From: Phycisphaeraceae bacterium
GTDB lineage: Bacteria; Planctomycetota; Phycisphaerae; Phycisphaerales; UBA1924
Assembly (NCBI GenBank): GCA_019454185.1
Contig: CP075368.1
Coordinates: 3,451,649-3,515,648, forward strand
Reading direction: 5' to 3'
Length of the DNA: 64,000 bases
A program made the translations under genes and the position numbers. Of the stretch, positions 2,975 to 50,233 are shown in pieces; within the stretch, counting starts at the first letter, position 1; each line of letters starts with the position of its first letter. Under the pieces are notes generated by a model. The model did no database searches and was not told the origin of the DNA. It saw only the letters and a program-made list of their open reading frames with translations.

Positions 2975-4654
2975 ATGGCGACCCTCTCAACTCGGTCCGG
3001 CTCCACCTCACATCAAACACCCGCGTCCGCTGCCGCCCCCCACGATCCTCACGCGGCACACGCAACCCCTGCGCAACCAGCCCCCGCGCATCCCGACGCC
3101 GCGCACACGCCCATCTCCTCCGGCGCGCCCCTCATCTCTTGGCCATCACACCCCAAGATCGTTGCCGAGGGTGTGACCTTTGACGACGTCCTGCTCATCC
3201 CGCGCTTCAGCGACGTCATGCCCGGTGATGCCGACACCTCGACGAAACTCACCCGCGCCATCACCCTCAACATCCCGCTCCTCTCCGCGCCGATGGACAC
3301 CGTGACGGAGTCCGCCCTCGCCATCGCCCTCGCGCAAGAAGGCGGCATCGGCATCATCCACAAGAACCTCTCCGTCGAGGCCCAGGCCCGCGAGGTCGCC
3401 AAGGTCAAACGCTCCGCCAACGGCATCATCGCCGACCCCATCACGCTCGGCCCCGGCGACACCGTCGGCCACGCCAAGCAGTTGATGCGCCAGCACAACG
3501 TCAGCGGCTTCCCCGTCACCGAAGACGGCTCCAAGGACCTCCGCTCCAAGGGCAAGCTCGTCGGCATCCTCACCCGCCGCGACCTCAAGTTCGCCGACCA
3601 CGACACCACCCTCGTCCGCGACCTCATGACCAAGGACAATCTCATCACCTCGCACGCGGGCACCACGCTCGCCGAGGCCGAGACCATCCTCAACCACGCC
3701 AAGGTCGAGAAGCTCCTCCTCGTTGACAAGTCGTTCAACCTCGCCGGTCTCATCACCATGCGCGATGTCGAGCGCCAGAGCCAGTTCCCCCGCGCCAGCC
3801 GCGACGCCCGAGGCCGCCTCATGTGCGGAGCCGCCGTCGGCGTCGACCAGTACGACCGCGTCGAGGCCCTCCTCGCCGCCGACGTCGACGTCATCACCGT
3901 CGACACCGCGCACGGCCACTCCGCCAACGTCATCCGCACCGTCAAGGCCATCAAGGCCAAGCACAACCTCCAGGTCATCGCCGGCAACATCGCCACCGCC
4001 GACGCCGCGCGAGACCTCATCAAGGCCGGCGCGGACGCCATCAAGGTCGGCATCGGCCCCGGCTCCATCTGCACCACCCGCGTCGTCACCGGCGTCGGCG
4101 TCCCCCAGATCACCGCCATCATGTCCGCCGTCGAGGGCGCACGCGGCACCGACGTTCCCGTCATCGCCGACGGCGGCATCCGCCTCTCCGGCGACATCGC
4201 CAAAGCAATCGCCGCCGGCGCATCCTCCGTCATGATGGGCTCCCTCTTCGCCGGTCTCGACGAATCCCCGGGCGAACTCGTCATCTCCGGTGGCCGCCGC
4301 TACAAGACCTACCGAGGCATGGGCTCCGAGGGAGCCATGGCCGCGGGCTCCGCCGATCGCTACCGCCAGGCCGACAAGGTCGGCGCCGATGGCAAGCCGC
4401 AGATGAAGTTCGTCCCCGAGGGCGTCGAGGGCCTCGTCGCCTACCGCGGCACACTCGCCGAGTTCGTCTACCAGCTTGTCGGCGGGCTCCGCTCCGCCAT
4501 GGGCTACTGCGGCTGCCGCACCATCGAACAGTTCCGCGCCGAGTCCCGCTTCTGCCGCGTCTCCGGCGCGACGGTCGTCGAGAACCACCCGCACGACATC
4601 CGCATCACCAAGGAATCGCCCAACTACACGGTCGAGCACGCGGCGAAGGTGTGA
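2975..4654 (+). CDS. guaB: Inosine-5'-monophosphate dehydrogenase
   Basis: GuaB oxidises IMP to XMP with NAD+, the committed step of GMP synthesis in the cytoplasm. ATG 2975 gives 559 residues against about 490 usual. The excess is an Ala/Pro/His-rich leader of about 60 residues before the conserved [17 protein letters not shown]. An upstream TTG at 2906 is possible but less likely. Two CBS repeats, the regulatory Bateman module, occupy about 160-265 ([37 protein letters not shown]). The active-site loop GPGSICTT holds the catalytic cysteine near residue 366, and the mobile flap is [10 protein letters not shown] with the following DRYRQ. All catalytic features are intact. It follows the four small membrane genes on the same strand. 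Confidence 0.97.
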
Positions 4655-4735
4655 GTGATGGCCCGCCTCTGGCAATGAAAGTGCAGTGTGCCCGGCGGCA
4701 GCGAGAAGAACGGACCAGAGTCTGAGATCGCAAAC

Positions 4736-5915: not shown

Positions 5916-6552
5916 GGTGCTCTCTTGCATGGGGCGGGTGGCCCCAACCTTCTTTGCCCCGTGCCACCGCATCTTCGCCGCCGCGGCGGAGATCGGTCCT
6001 CCCTTGAATCCGTCTTGCTCCGAGCGTCCCGTAAGGGACGCCGGGCTTATAGCCACTCGTGGGGGGGCGCAGCGCTGTCGCGCAATGTGGGGGGGCGACA
6101 AGCCAGCCACCGGTCAAGTCCCCGCGCCGCGGCTTCCTCAGTGGAGGGTCCCCAACGGAGACCCGAATCTCTCCCCGCACCGCTCAACACTCACGCACAG
6201 CACCAACACACTCTGCCGCCCCTACAGGGCTCATCACCACATCACCGCACACCCGGGGCGACGCTTGCCGCTCCGCGGCTGCGCTTGCCCCGGGCTCCGC
6301 CTGGCCCGCCCGCTTGGGGCTTCCAATCAAGATCCCTCACACCCGCCCGCCCCCTCCCTCTGCCCCTCAGTCCCTTTGCTCCTCTGCCCCTTCTGCATCC
6401 CCCTCATCTTCTCCTCCGTGGCCCTCAGTGGTGAGTCCTCTTCCCCTTCCCCTTCTTCCCCATTGCCTATTGCCCATTGCCCATTGCCCTCTCCACGCCC
6501 CTCCCGCGCCCCGCCATAGCGTGCGAGCGCATCTCCGCGCACCATGCCGACA
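5916..6552. repeat. Gene-free stretch filled with dispersed repeats
   Basis: No convincing gene is present. The left part (about 5936-5970) holds GTGCCACCGC next to a CCCCAACCTTCTTTG block; its reverse complement recurs near 34847-34885. A hairpin GCGTCCC-GTAA-GGGACGC lies at 6024-6041. The right part is a C/T-rich tract: 6351-6392 is the reverse complement of a G-rich block seen at 7302-7340 and 8367-8408. The segment 6413-6436 (CTCCGTGGCCCTCAGTGGTG) nearly repeats bases 890-917 inside the decarboxylase gene. Runs of TTGCCTATTGCCCATTGCC follow. Confidence 0.6.
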
Positions 6553-8506: not shown

Positions 8507-9045
8507 GCGACGACGATACAGCGCGGCGATCGTGATGCAAGAGCGTGTTGCGAAGAAATCTCGGAGTGTGGGTGTTTGGGCGCGCAAATGGCATGAGTGC
8601 GCGCGGTGTCACTGACAACAGCATGTCAGTGAGGTGGAGTCAAGGGGGGAAAATAGCAGATCGCAAAGGACCAGATGGCAGACTGGTGAATGGTGCCGGT
8701 GGGTCGGGCGAGGACTGAGGGGAGGGAGTCGGGGGCGTCCGCCCCGCTCCACCAAGGAAGCCGCTGCGCGGCGTGCTTTCCGCCAGTTCCGCTCGGTCGC
8801 CTTCGGCGACTATCGCTCCACTGGCGGCTACATACCTGCGTCCCTTGCGGGACGCTCAAGCCGGTCGCCTTCGGCGACTCAAAGGTGTTTCAAGGAAGCC
8901 CCATCGCCAGCTTCGAAGTTGGAGACTCTTGTTGGATATTCGCGGTCAGCAACGCCGATGCTCGCGCTCGGACTGTTTGTCGTTTGCGGGGAGGTGCGGA
9001 GGGGTGTTCCCTCCGCGCTGCTCCGTTTCATCAGAGTACGAATCC
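8507..9045. repeat. Gene-free stretch with several GC-rich hairpins
   Basis: I see no gene here. Perfect short hairpins occur at 8796-8810 and again at 8864-8878 (GTCGCC-TTC-GGCGAC), and at 8838-8855 (GCGTCCC-TTGC-GGGACGC), the latter like 6024-6041. Their spacing resembles a cluster of REP-like elements. The remainder (8880-9045) looks like unique spacer. Confidence 0.6.
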
Positions 9046-9987
9046 CTATCCGCCGCCAGTACTCTTGCTGATCACATCGACTTCCTGCGTGTTCGCGATC
9101 GCCTTGACGGTCGTCGCCACATTGTCGAGAGAGGGCATCAAGTGAGCGTGGCTGAACTGTTCCGCCATGAGCAACTGGAGCAGTCGTGGCGCTTGCCCGG
9201 CCTCGAGCTCGAGTCGAATGATCGATCGTTCACCGCAGCTAGACTCGATGGAGTCTCCGATGCAAGGCCATGTGCCTCGGGCTGCGAATGTACTTTCTGA
9301 ATCCCGATGAAACAGAAACACGCCCGACTGGGCATGCAAGTACCTGTTGCGAGATCTCGGATAAGACAGGACTTGGAGTCGCTTGTCCATGGCCGCAAGA
9401 CGCGACTCACGGATCGCCCACACTGCCAAGCGAGTCGCGCCGAGCGGCATTGTTGACGCTGCGAAGTAGGCCGCTACGTACGAATGCCGTGCGCAATCGA
9501 GCAATCGAGTTTGGATTCCGTGGTGCTGTGCAAGCGCGGTCGTCGAGCTAGGCTCCAGCTGGAAAGTCGTGAACTCTCCAACTAACCATGACTTCGGGAC
9601 ATCCTTGTCGGCTCCAATGAGGTCCGGCGGCTTGTCCGCTTCCAACCCCAGTGCGTCTGCCAGTCGCCAAAAAGACCACACTGCCCATGCCTCGGCGAGC
9701 CTCGCACGAAAGATCTCTATCCAACGTGGTCGCTTAATCGCATCAACGATTCTGCTCTTGTCCACCAACGAAGTGGCCTCAAGCTCTGATTGCCGCCAGA
9801 AGGGGTTCTTGTCTCGGTCATCCCGGCACCGCCACAGGCTCGGAAGCAATGGCCATGCTGCGTCACCTTGGCCGCGAAACACCCAGTCCGAAACGTACCC
9901 GTTGCAGTTCCCCCAACGCGGCGACGACATCCGCAGCTCGTGCAGGAACTTCTCCGCATCATCGAACTTCTCTACATGAATGGCCAT
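9046..9987 (-). CDS. FRG-domain protein
   Basis: A 313-residue protein with the FRG domain, named for its Phe-Arg-Gly motif. The motif is at residues 35-45 (WVFRGQGDAAW) and the second hallmark at 151-165 (ALAQHHGIQTRLLDC). The biochemical activity of FRG domains is unsettled; they occur in proteins linked to mobile and defence regions. No signal peptide or membrane segment is seen. GC is lower than in the adjacent pdxJ, consistent with acquisition. It starts 35 bp after pdxJ on the same strand and ends at repeat-rich intergenic DNA. Confidence 0.8.
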   Translation of the reverse strand: MAIHVEKFDDAEKFLHELRMSSPRWGNCNGYVSDWVFRGQGDAAWPLLPSLWRCRDDRDKNPFWRQSELEATSLVDKSRIVDAIKRPRWIEIFRARLAEAWAVWSFWRLADALGLEADKPPDLIGADKDVPKSWLVGEFTTFQLEPSSTTALAQHHGIQTRLLDCARHSYVAAYFAASTMPLGATRLAVWAIRESRLAAMDKRLQVLSYPRSRNRYLHAQSGVFLFHRDSESTFAARGTWPCIGDSIESSCGERSIIRLELEAGQAPRLLQLLMAEQFSHAHLMPSLDNVATTVKAIANTQEVDVISKSTGGG

Positions 9988-33807: not shown

Positions 33808-33946
33808 TCGGAGCGAAGACGTCGATCATGGTGGCACGGCAAGGGAGGATCTTGGTGCGACCAGTATCCACGAGGGAACGCCCTTCGTGCACGGGAAGCC
33901 GTCGCGCGCCGGTCTATCGCCTTTGGCTCCGAAGGAGCCGGTGTGT

Positions 33947-33993
33947 GTAGCCGCGGGCGCAGCGCAGTCCCGAAGGGACAAGCCAGCCCGTGG
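33947..33993. repeat. REP-like element, left copy of the first Y1 transposase locus
   Basis: A 47-bp element carrying the hairpin GTCCC-GAA-GGGAC (33967-33979) and ending CAAGCCAGCCCGTGG. Its inverted partner is at 34593-34639; the two match over their full length with two one-base gaps, sharing GTAGCC, GCGCAGCG, CGAAGG and AGCCAGCCCGTGG. Further hairpins lie beside it: GGCTCC-GAA-GGAGCC (33925-33939) and a GCCCC/GGGGC stem just before the transposase start (34013-34027). Confidence 0.75.
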
Positions 33994-34039
33994 TAAGCTG
34001 GCACAGGTACATCGCCCCGGCAGGGGCGTGGGAGGAACC

Positions 34040-34489
34040 ATGCCCGGAACCTATTCACAGATTCTTCTGCACGTCGTGTTCAGCACGAAGGAGCGCCGGC
34101 CGTTGATCGATACCGGTCTCGCGCCACGCCTGTATGCATACATAGGAGGGATCATCCGTGCAGAGAAGGGCGTGATGTACGAGATCGGTGGCATCGCGGA
34201 TCACGTTCACTTGTATCTCCGGTGGCGCACGGACGAGAGCATCGCGGGCCTCATGCGAACCGTGAAGTCGCGATCATCAAAGTGGGTGCACGAAGAGATT
34301 GGCCTGCGCGAGTTCGCCTGGCAGGAGGGATACTCGGTGCTCTCGGTGAGCAAGTCGCAGGAAGAGCATGTGAAGCGGTACATCCTCGGGCAGCGAGAGC
34401 ACCACGCGAAGGAGGACTTCAAGTCGGAGTTGCTGCGGTTGCTGCGGGCGCACGAGGTGGAGTTTGATGAGAGATATGTGTTTGAGTGA
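34040..34489 (+). CDS. REP-associated/IS200-like Y1 transposase
   Basis: A 149-residue Y1 (HUH) transposase. ADHVHLYLRW carries the HUH metal site (His-Val-His), and EEHVKRYILGQREHH carries the catalytic tyrosine on its helix. The core also has HVVFSTKERRPLID at the N-terminus and SSKWVHEEIG. This is the TnpA_REP/IS200-type pattern: single-strand palindrome cleavage by a single tyrosine. ATG 34040 has GGAGG directly upstream. The reading frame could extend back to 33683, which is a shadow of glyA. Motifs are intact. It sits between two inverted REP-like elements. Confidence 0.88.
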   Translation: MPGTYSQILLHVVFSTKERRPLIDTGLAPRLYAYIGGIIRAEKGVMYEIGGIADHVHLYLRWRTDESIAGLMRTVKSRSSKWVHEEIGLREFAWQEGYSVLSVSKSQEEHVKRYILGQREHHAKEDFKSELLRLLRAHEVEFDERYVFE

Positions 34490-34592
34490 GGAGGTCGGCG
34501 CGGTGAGCGCGTTGAGAGGGATGGTCGATGGCGTTCCTCTGCCCCGCCGGGGCAGCGTGCGAAGGTGGAACGAGCGTGTGATGTGTCGCTTT

Positions 34593-34639
34593 CCACGGGC
34601 TGGCTCACGCCTTCGGCGTTCGCTGCGCCACGTGGCTAC
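34593..34639. repeat. REP-like element, right copy of the first Y1 transposase locus
   Basis: Reverse complement of the left element at 33947-33993. Its hairpin is ACGCC-TTC-GGCGT (34607-34619 as written on the plus strand). Both stem sides differ from the left copy's GTCCC/GGGAC stem, yet pairing is kept, a compensatory change. Confidence 0.75.
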
Positions 34640-34941
34640 ATCCCGGCGGCCCGGTGGGCCGCGAAGAGGAATGCGTTGTGGGCACAGGGCGGGGTAGGAG
34701 AGCGGAAGAGAGGGTGGGTGGGCCGCGATGCACCGGTTGAAGCCGGTGTCGCCTCCCCACGGGCAACCAGCCGTGCGCCGAAGCGGCGAAGAGGGGGGTA
34801 CACCGAGATCGGCGGTTGGCTCTCCTTGTGGGCCGGCCGATCTGCGGTGGCACGGCGCAAGGAAGGTCGGGGCTACACGCCACGGGTCGGGAAGAAGGGA
34901 CGGAGAAGAGGGGAGTCCGCTCTTCACGGGTTCCCGAGCAT
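34640..34941. repeat. Gene-free repeat-rich stretch before the HEPN gene
   Basis: No gene is supported. The segment near 34847-34885 (GCGGTGGCACGGCGCAAGG) is the reverse complement of one near 5936-5970. Other GC-rich self-complementary pieces occur near 34805-34850 and 34650-34670. It continues the REP-like cluster downstream of the transposase. Confidence 0.5.
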
Positions 34942-36177
34942 TCATTGGGAATCCTTGTCGCCAACTGTGTGCCCTCTAAGCCATCGAATGAACGCCATGC
35001 GCAGACCGCGAGAAAAATCCCGAATCAGGCCCTCGTCAGCATACAGACGCCCACCGAATGGAGCAAGCCAAGGCAGGCCGTCGCCCAACATGTGTGTACC
35101 ATGTACGATCTTGGAACGAAGATCGTATATCAATCCGGCGAACTGGCGACTGGATGCGATTTCGAGCATGTACGAATCCACGAAGTCACGAAACAGCCGT
35201 GTCGGCCCGGGACCCGTGGGCCTCTTGCACGATTGGCAAGGCGATGACGGCACCACCGGCAGTAATGATTCGACAGCCGCTGCGAGACACATCAGCCGCA
35301 CTTCTTCGTGTCCAGTATTCACGAGAGATGATGTATGAAGCCAATGACACGCTCTCAGGAACCGCTCCTGGACATCTCGTTCAGCTTGGTCGTGCAACGT
35401 CAAGAGCGACGTTAGCGTATCTGGAATACTGAAGTCATCTCGAAGCCATGGAGAGATCGCAGGAAGGGAAACAGAGAAGTACTGCGATTCAGGAATGGCC
35501 GGGATCAGACCACATTTATCCAACAGACAAACTGAATCAGGAGTGATGTGCGTGGGCCAGTAATCTAGTTGCACATACTCACATTGAGGAGTACCGTTAC
35601 GCTTGATTATTGCATAGTCGTGCATGCCATAAGGATGTCGTGCTCGCACGCCAATTGTAAAGGCATTCAGCAGAAGCAACCATCGCCTGCCCTCCTGTTC
35701 CCGAGAGATTCGATCAAGCTGCGAACTATTCGGGAATCGCAAGTACTTCAAGCTTACGACACATGGATGCTCGCCCATCAGAAAGGGCGGCCTCGGATCC
35801 TTGGGCGGTGCGGGCCGCACCTGCATTCGAAGCTTGCTGTCAATAAACTGCCCGCCAATCTGCTTCGAAGCAAATGCGGTGAATGCGTAGATTCCCTCCG
35901 AGCGGTCCGTGACTAGCTCTTCATGTATACGGCGGACATACTCATTAGCCTCCATATCACTTGATGACTTCACCTCGACTGATGCAATTTCGTGGCTGCT
36001 CTTCTTGTATCGAAGACGGACGCTTGGTGCGTCAGATGCATGCACGTGAACAACATACGGCTCCTCTTGCATCAGGCACGAGCCGAGGGAGTTGATCGCG
36101 TGCGCCAGAAACCGCAACTCCGGCTTGCCAAGCAGCGGGGCCATGATCTCCGGGGTGATTTCACGATACGACGCCAT
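34942..36177 (-). CDS. HEPN-domain (Apea-like) protein
   Basis: A 411-residue protein. The last third is Apea-like HEPN: RFLRACHWLHTSSLVNTGHEE, LMCLAAAVESLLP, the CQSCKRP linker and DLRSKIVHGTHML, whose RxxxxH (Arg354, His359) is the putative RNase motif of HEPN domains. The N-terminal part has alternating strands and helices and no recognised domain. AT content is clearly above the neighbours (about 50% GC), so horizontal transfer is likely. The start codon is 9 bp past the asnS stop on the same strand, possibly letting read-through drive it. Such proteins are common in conflict systems, but no partner is visible here. Confidence 0.75.
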   Translation of the reverse strand: MASYREITPEIMAPLLGKPELRFLAHAINSLGSCLMQEEPYVVHVHASDAPSVRLRYKKSSHEIASVEVKSSSDMEANEYVRRIHEELVTDRSEGIYAFTAFASKQIGGQFIDSKLRMQVRPAPPKDPRPPFLMGEHPCVVSLKYLRFPNSSQLDRISREQEGRRWLLLLNAFTIGVRARHPYGMHDYAIIKRNGTPQCEYVQLDYWPTHITPDSVCLLDKCGLIPAIPESQYFSVSLPAISPWLRDDFSIPDTLTSLLTLHDQAERDVQERFLRACHWLHTSSLVNTGHEEVRLMCLAAAVESLLPVVPSSPCQSCKRPTGPGPTRLFRDFVDSYMLEIASSRQFAGLIYDLRSKIVHGTHMLGDGLPWLAPFGGRLYADEGLIRDFSRGLRMAFIRWLRGHTVGDKDSQ

Positions 36178-49348: not shown

Positions 49349-49445
49349 CAATTCATGCCACCGATTTCCGTGCGAATGAACCGCGTCGCTACAGCGAGTG
49401 CGAACCACGGCGCACTGCTCTGAGCGGCCCGCAGGGACGCGAGTA

Positions 49446-49496
49446 GACAGCCGTGGGTAAGGGAGGTCGCCTCTGGCGACCGACCGCCACCCACGG
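49446..49496. repeat. REP-like element, left copy of the second Y1 locus
   Basis: A nested palindrome. Outer arms CCGTGGGT (49451-49458) and ACCCACGG (49489-49496) enclose the perfect hairpin GGTCGCC-TCT-GGCGACC (49465-49481). The segment GACAGCCGTGGGTAAGGGAG matches, in inverted orientation, the right element at 50148-50168 apart from one extra C there. Confidence 0.8.
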
Positions 49497-49542
49497 TACA
49501 TGCGGTATATTGGTGTCGACCCCGCAGGGGTCGGAGGATGCC

Positions 49543-49995
49543 ATGTCGCAAACGCTGTCTCGCGTGCTGATTCATTACGTCTTCTCGACGCGGAATCGTG
49601 AATCGCTCATCACTCCCGATATTGAATCTGACCTGTACGCGTACATGGGCGGCATCTGCCGGGCGCACGACTCTCCATTGCTCTCGATGGGAGGAATGCC
49701 GGACCACGTCCACATGCTTGTCGTGCTGGGTCGGAAGATCTCGATGAGCGATCTGATGATGGAGGTAAAGAAGGACTCTTCAAAGTGGATCAAGACACGG
49801 GGACGCGAGTTCAGCGGGTTCCATTGGCAGGACGGCTACGGGGCTTTTTCGATAGGTGAGTCGCAGCGGAATGATATTCTGCGGTACATCGCGACGCAGA
49901 AGGAACACCACAAGACTCGTACATTCAAGGAAGAGCTTGTCGCGCTTCTTGAGCGCTACGGCGTGGAGTACGACCCGGAGCATATCTGGACGTGA
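49543..49995 (+). CDS. REP-associated/IS200-like Y1 transposase
   Basis: A 150-residue HUH transposase. MPDHVHMLVVLG gives the metal site and DILRYIATQKEHHKTRTF the catalytic tyrosine helix. The core also has HYVFSTRNRESLITPDIES and SSKWIKTRGREFSGFHWQDGY. It is a diverged homologue of the first transposase: same length and layout with many substitutions, so the two entered or separated long ago. ATG 49543 follows GGAGGATGCC. No disruption of the motifs is seen, so the enzyme could be functional. Confidence 0.88.
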   Translation: MSQTLSRVLIHYVFSTRNRESLITPDIESDLYAYMGGICRAHDSPLLSMGGMPDHVHMLVVLGRKISMSDLMMEVKKDSSKWIKTRGREFSGFHWQDGYGAFSIGESQRNDILRYIATQKEHHKTRTFKEELVALLERYGVEYDPEHIWT

Positions 49996-50126
49996 AGCGA
50001 GGGTTGTGTATCTTGCAGAGTGGACGCCAGCTGATGGCGACTTCCGCGTGCCGTCGGTCCAATCAGGAGACTCCGACCCCTGTGGGGTCGAGTGAAGAAG
50101 ACAGTCGCATTCGCGCGCGTCGCCTT

Positions 50127-50168
50127 CCGTGGGTCGCGGTCGCTTCGCTCCCTTGACCCACGGCTGTC
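50127..50168. repeat. REP-like element, right copy of the second Y1 locus
   Basis: Perfect CCGTGGGTC (50127-50135) and GACCCACGG (50155-50163) arms with a 19-base GC-rich loop, followed by CTGTC. In reverse complement it begins GACAGCCGTGGGTCAAGGGAG, matching the left element of this locus. Confidence 0.8.
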
Positions 50169-50233
50169 AACTATGCCCCCTGCGGGGGCATCATGATTCC
50201 AACACGTTACAAATTACAATCCAAAGTCGGAAC

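Follow-up and report, generated by a model that had tools for sequence, protein, structure and literature searches.

Mirrored REP-like palindromes around an IS200-side Y1 transposase gene in a Phycisphaeraceae genome

REP systems are attributed to RAYTs, which are regarded as relatives of IS200 transposases that became domesticated, and REP/REPIN populations reach high copy numbers, often above 100. The ends of IS200/IS605 elements are strand-specific hairpins, not inverted repeats; those of IS608 and ISDra2 are not inverted copies of each other, and dispersed REPs are not known there. In the REPtrons of RAYT/TnpAREP groups 2 and 3 (E. coli, S. maltophilia; PMC8266576), a gene with its own REP family is surrounded by inverted REPs, each with a GTAG foot and a hairpin, and further REPs are dispersed in the genome. 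TnpAY1 subclass 1.2, found mostly in Cyanobacteria and Bacteroidetes in the 2018 survey, is described as having low copy number, "REP: no", no IS behaviour and generally no terminal structures (Quentin et al. 2018, PMC6006769). Finally, GTAG-tagged repeats and TIRtrons, including GTAG repeats in Planctomycetes, numerous repeat-flanked Y1 genes in R. baltica and composite ends (GTAG plus stem-loop) in Pseudomonas, were reported by Di Nocera et al. 2013 (PMC3733652), who describe the genes as RAYT/TIRYT; the available text mentions neither subclass 1.2 nor a three-palindrome rule.

The locus analysed here resembles each of these systems in part. It has the GTAG foot, hairpin, inverted REPs, dispersed REPs and gene-specific REP family of REPtrons but, unlike them, it encodes a protein that lies on the IS200 side rather than in class 2 and carries two extra short palindromes at each end. 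With subclass 1.2 it shares size (148–149 aa), the motifs DH[IV]H, WQ and Y---Q--HH, low copy number and diverged paralogues, whereas the survey lists no REP and the ends found here, at loci from Planctomycetota, Verrucomicrobiota, Acidobacteriota and Bacteroidota, are mirrored REPs. The closest solved folds are the IS608 and ISDra2 TnpA proteins, with which the enzyme would share HUH-Y1 chemistry on single strands. An earlier sequence-only reading of the locus had valued it as a planctomycete RAYT/REP example; REPs and Y1 genes in planctomycetes already figure in the 2013 report. As far as the searched literature shows, the novel points seem to be that REPs go with subclass 1.2 and that a mirrored end of three palindromes occurs across phyla; no further report of REPs accompanying subclass 1.2, or in Verrucomicrobia, came up. 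GTAG-footed mirrored REPs around an IS200-side enzyme in several phyla provide a third comparison point for foot recognition and the origins of 'domestication', as well as a natural panel of enzyme, foot and stem combinations for co-evolution tests, and they qualify the published statement that subclass 1.2 has no such structures.

Anatomy of the unit and its neighbours

The window, i.e. the whole 64-kb stretch of DNA that was analysed, contains a unit spanning about 33925–34662, with the following parts:

33925–33939, no strand: P1, left outer short palindrome GGCTCCGAAGGAGCC, read from the sequence; recurs outside the REP in relatives
33947–33993, + strand: REP A, GTAG foot and nested hairpin, outer stem CCGCGGGC/GCCCGTGG, inner GTCCC-GAA-GGGAC; 72.8 bits
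34013–34028, no strand: P2, left inner short palindrome CGCCCCGGCAGGGGCG, directly before the gene
34040–34489, + strand: Y1 HUH transposase gene, 149 aa, TnpAY1 subclass 1.2-like by motifs (DHVH, WQ, YILGQREHH), models and predicted fold
34539–34555, no strand: P2', right inner short palindrome CTGCCCCGCCGGGGCAG; kept in the glyA–asnS region of a same-genus genome (G001)
34593–34639, − strand: REP B, GTAG foot and nested hairpin, inner ACGCC-GAA-GGCGT; 60.6 bits
34646–34662, no strand: P1', right outer short palindrome GCGGCCCGGTGGGCCGC

The sequence-only reading had reported two inverted elements with differing hairpins around an HUH transposase gene. Realignment of A with inverted B over the full 47 nt, with two one-base gaps, agrees with this, and the gene product matches Y1_Tnp (E 2.7e-22); that palindromes A and B flank a Y1 gene is thus confirmed. 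Each folded element has an outer stem followed by an unpaired zone and, around GAA, a 5-bp inner stem; the inner stems GTCCC/GGGAC (A) and ACGCC/GGCGT (B) both pair, and the outer 8-bp stem varies too. An independent repeat search returned 29-nt inverted arms, 83% complementary, at A and B. Comparison of the left flank of the gene with the inverted right flank gave a score of 52, the best of 100 shuffles being 27, while the same geometry placed at random in the window exceeded its shuffles in only 4 of 300 placements. An Rfam search of the window gave no match.

The flanking structure is larger than that reading had it, since P1 and P2 at each end had escaped notice. Each end consists of P1, REP and P2, mirrored on both sides of the gene, and in this gene and its relatives the order from outside to inside, as judged by eye from alignments, is fixed on both flanks: P1, the footed nested hairpin (REP), then P2 by the gene. 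P1, often GCCCCGAAGGGGC-like, is about 7 nt from the REP, and 6–9 nt outside it in relatives; the REP-to-P2 spacing is 20–40 nt. Among the genome matches listed, P2 has six exact 14-mer copies, all at the ends of three Y1 units.

Three more REPs and a second Y1 unit of the window had also been overlooked:

6059–6113, + strand: dispersed REP belonging to the family of A and B, half of a transposase-less inverted pair; 35.2 bits
6252–6298, − strand: partner REP of that pair; in a same-genus genome, the locus holds a Y1 unit
8780–8831, − strand: dispersed single REP, outer stem CCGCCAGT/ACTGGCGG; weak score (26.8 bits, E 0.008), clear nested fold
49447–49496, + strand: left REP of the second Y1 unit, ACAG foot, outer stem CCGTGGGT/ACCCACGG; from flank comparison
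49543–49995, + strand: second Y1 gene, product of 150 aa with 40% identity and the motifs of the same subclass (YIATQKEHH); from ORF and motifs
50127–50167, − strand: right REP of the second Y1 unit, outer stem as in the left REP, inner hairpin different; from flank comparison

The second unit (49424–50190) has its own P1 and P2 palindromes and follows the same plan as the first, with a different foot and outer stem. On its left side, a GTAG lies 4 nt further out than the ACAG foot.

Mirrored ends, REP copies and stem pairing among relatives

Similarly mirrored ends surround most related Y1 genes. In an order-wide set of 48 Y1 loci from 18 Phycisphaerales genomes, each compared with 100 shuffles, inverted flank similarity exceeded every shuffle at 41 loci; direct similarity did so at 16, in part owing to the palindromes themselves and to REP clusters. 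A multi-phylum set, fetched from a genome collection with a Phycisphaerales profile and partly overlapping the first, yielded inverted palindromic ends above all shuffles at 70 of 75 testable loci. The Phycisphaerae/Planctomycetota pool, 47 loci in all, accounts for 46 of these, and most loci from Verrucomicrobiota (Akkermansiaceae among them), Acidobacteriota and Bacteroidota pass as well. Detectable inverted ends are missing in about 7–15% of loci. The absence of REPs and, in general, of terminal structures published for subclass 1.2, a reported trait that lies outside its sequence definition, does not describe these loci. Three metagenome-assembled genomes labelled Rhizobiales/Hyphomicrobiales (loci L241, L243 and L251) hold Y1 genes close to the Phycisphaerales forms and accompanied by CCACGGGT REPs like theirs, which may reflect mis-binning or transfer.

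Copies of the element were sought with a covariance model (R1) built from six elements, one of its 15 pairs being lost in the building; MAFFT placed the outer stem wrongly in some alignments. The model has at least 35 matches in the 3.80-Mb genome, belonging to several subfamilies (among those listed, 18 have E<2e-4, the six training elements included). Among the matches listed, REP copy number appears low for a classic REP population. Matches occur in 18 of the 41 genomes of the order, and the protein is likewise present in 18. A covariance search, as the sequence-only reading had proposed, turned up additional copies both in this genome and in related ones, with pairing kept. An exact-pattern scan of the genome (GTAGCC..GAA..GG) returned mostly noise, the backward control giving more matches than the pattern. 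Two other repeats were seen on the way: five REP matches with about 281-bp spacing in G001 (contig C1, 617540–618713), which form a tandem array of a REP-bearing unit, and a 47-mer, GTAGCCGCGCAGTCCCCATGCGCCGAAGGTCGCGGTCCGGTCTCCGG, unrelated to the REPs and present in more than 10 copies in the genome that contains the window (G000; e.g. at 9734, 88655 and 375847), which possibly belongs to a multicopy gene or an IS.

Stem pairing is clearly kept across copies. In the 58 distinct R1 matches, 96.5% of cells pair and two-sided change affects 11 of 14 pairs (165 cells, against 51±8 in shuffles). The covariation score is 0.520, as compared with 0.165 after shuffling and 0.017–0.049 with the partners slid, the slid control being the safer one because the alignment was fitted to the model and leans towards pairing. 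The inner segments of 99 footed elements form stems of 5.06 bp on average, versus 3.54 bp when shuffled, and inner parts of all lengths pair. The outer stem CCACGGGT is common to 67 elements that have 67 different inner parts.

Whether two-sided change implies selection on structure, as the sequence-only reading had it, is another matter. Kept pairing stands, but the claim of selection was overstated, as the inner hairpins of A and B are common types found on other outer stems of the same genus: the inner 22 nt of A are identical to copies at other loci, beside another Y1 gene, and those of B are one base off the inner part at locus L007. A and B thus differ mainly because each carries a different common inner hairpin. 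More generally, the R1 matches include five common inner types, the commonest of which sits on 11 outer types, and in two cases a pair of outer types has two inner types in common (a four-gamete pattern); G-U intermediates make up 12 of about 755 paired cells, and one-sided or G-U states are few beside the 165 two-sided ones. Because inner types are common and G-U intermediates rare, exchange of inner-hairpin cassettes or template-switch correction of palindromes could yield the observed pattern with no compensation at single positions. We regard such an account of the covariation, which is compatible with a REPtron-like unit, as possible though somewhat doubtful: it leaves unexplained the link of foot and outer stem to the protein clade, as well as the pairing of inner parts of all lengths. 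Two-sided change may otherwise reflect selection by the enzyme.

The foot itself was characterized from a search for the CC..GG stem that made no use of it. This stem, found at 184 of 250 ends, is in the commonest cases directly preceded by GTAG (73), TTAG (24), GTTG (12), GTCG (7) or ATAG (6). On a tree of 108 proteins, foot types cluster, with 32 changes against a shuffled mean of 53.7 and none of 200 shuffles as low, a statistic for which the bootstrap is not fully settled and which near-copies inflate. The foot, mostly NTAG, tracks the protein clade.

The Y1 enzyme and how the unit may work

Motifs, curated models, PDB profile matches and predicted fold concur in placing the enzyme on the IS200/IS605 side, where it fits TnpAY1 subclass 1.2. 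The 149-aa protein has the subclass size (about 148 aa) and its DH[IV]H, WQ and Y---Q--HH motifs, and lacks the class 2 Y motif with NP (YI..NP), having YILGQREHH instead. It passes the NCBI IS200 model (63.4 bits, cut-off 55), which all 19 relatives also match, whereas it does not match the RAYT model NF047646; 8 of the 19 relatives match the latter, with three scores among those listed at 23.4–31.6 bits, below the cut-off of 80. A search of the PDB with the single protein gave no match, a profile being needed; the profile matched eight IS200/IS605-type sequences and no RAYT at E<=1. The AlphaFold model (pLDDT 91.7) superimposes on the TnpA of ISDra2 and IS608 with Z 16–17 and an rmsd of 1.4–1.8 Å over 103–104 residues, versus Z 10.7 and 3.4 Å over 120 residues for the E. 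coli RAYT 4er8. In 38 proteins, the catalytic residues H55, H57, Y114 and Q118 and the W94–Q95 pair are invariant, as is H122. The W94–Q95 region has been linked to GTAG reading in REP-associated classes, in which both residues are conserved (PMC6006769). In the E. coli TnpAREP, the residues tied to contact with GTAG include Q95 (PMC6006769, PMC8266576).

Given a mirrored REP anatomy combined with IS200-side motifs, models and fold, there is good anatomical support for a unit that works like a REPtron, while the statement that it is a RAYT is not supported. The sequence-only reading was borne out as to an HUH/Y1 enzyme with REP-like elements, and not as to a RAYT. We consider it probable that the locus is a REPtron-like unit driven by a putatively active Y1 enzyme of subclass 1.2, because of its mirrored ends, dispersed hairpins, kept pairing, clade-tied foot, invariant catalytic and WQ residues, and presence or absence at matching loci. 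Against this reading stand a near-identical pair of units that is a segmental duplication reaching beyond the ends, the minority of loci without inverted ends, the apparently low copy number and the use of a model-fitted alignment. In a REPtron-like unit, the enzyme would bind the REP when the DNA is single-stranded, as on the lagging strand, and its WQ region would read the GTAG/NTAG foot; Tyr114 would cut the folded single strand near the foot, after which the strands would be rejoined. Single REPs or inverted pairs would be copied or moved in trans, the gene itself moving or being lost only rarely.

An ordinary IS200/IS605-type insertion sequence, in which the palindromes are transposition ends and the whole unit hops, would account for the affinities of the protein and for units present or absent at matching loci. 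It is nonetheless unlikely: the ends are inverted copies, unlike IS200/IS605 ends; the remaining Y1 proteins encoded in the genome share 35–57% identity with the 149-aa protein, none being a near-identical copy, and there is no second copy of the gene above 67% DNA identity over its length; REPs outnumber the gene; and no tnpB-like gene was recognised on reading the neighbouring ORFs. That the gene is a genuine class 2 RAYT (TnpAREP) served by canonical REPs is strongly disfavoured, even though the GTAG foot, in line with the GT[AG]G of that class, the nested hairpin with its unpaired zone, the inverted pair round the gene with dispersed REPs in the genome, and the WQ motif are all found here as in RAYT systems, as the RAYT model is unmatched (the listed relatives scoring far below its cut-off), the Y motif lacks the class 2 NP and the fold is nearer to IS608/ISDra2. 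That the palindromes are transcription terminators or mRNA-protecting hairpins beside a bystander gene is barely tenable, for although strong hairpins adjoin the gene ends, these are mirrored on both sides of the gene at nearly all multi-phylum loci, their unpaired foot is conserved and G-U pairs, which RNA would tolerate, are scarce.

We tentatively suggest that the Y1 proteins of subclass 1.2 make up a lineage of their own on the IS200 side, spread over several phyla and mobilising REPs, with the three-palindrome mirrored end as its rule, in which the variable inner hairpin would be an exchanged cassette, and reading of a TAG-type foot would either predate the IS200/RAYT split or have arisen twice.

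Presence, absence and movement of units

Units come and go at REP-bearing sites. In G001, the glyA–asnS region holds the right end (P2'–REP–P1'), with 81% identity over 147 nt and a different inner stem, without the 34040–34489 gene; another Y1 gene in the region, 44% identical, is bounded by simple hairpins. In the same-genus genome G003 (locus L143), a Y1 unit with 74% identity lies downstream of the orthologue of the gene at 3865–4655 of the window, a gene that is followed in the window by the bare REP pair (6059–6298), without transposase. Insertion and deletion by recombination between REPs both fit these observations.

A pair of 97% identical copies in G000, at 3096–3098 kb (L047) and 2315–2317 kb (L048), was considered as a recent REP-bounded transposition (3.10 and 2.32 Mb) and rejected: it is a 1.66-kb inverted segmental duplication that includes the Y1 gene and both ends and reaches well past them. 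In one of the two copies the stop codon is lost and the reading frame continues for about 20 codons, and clusters of GCAGCACGCTGCTCCGCAGCGGGAGAGCG-like repeats follow the duplication. In the window, a 411-aa ORF (34942–36177, − strand) lies between the Y1 unit and asnS; it was not found in the matching region of G001.
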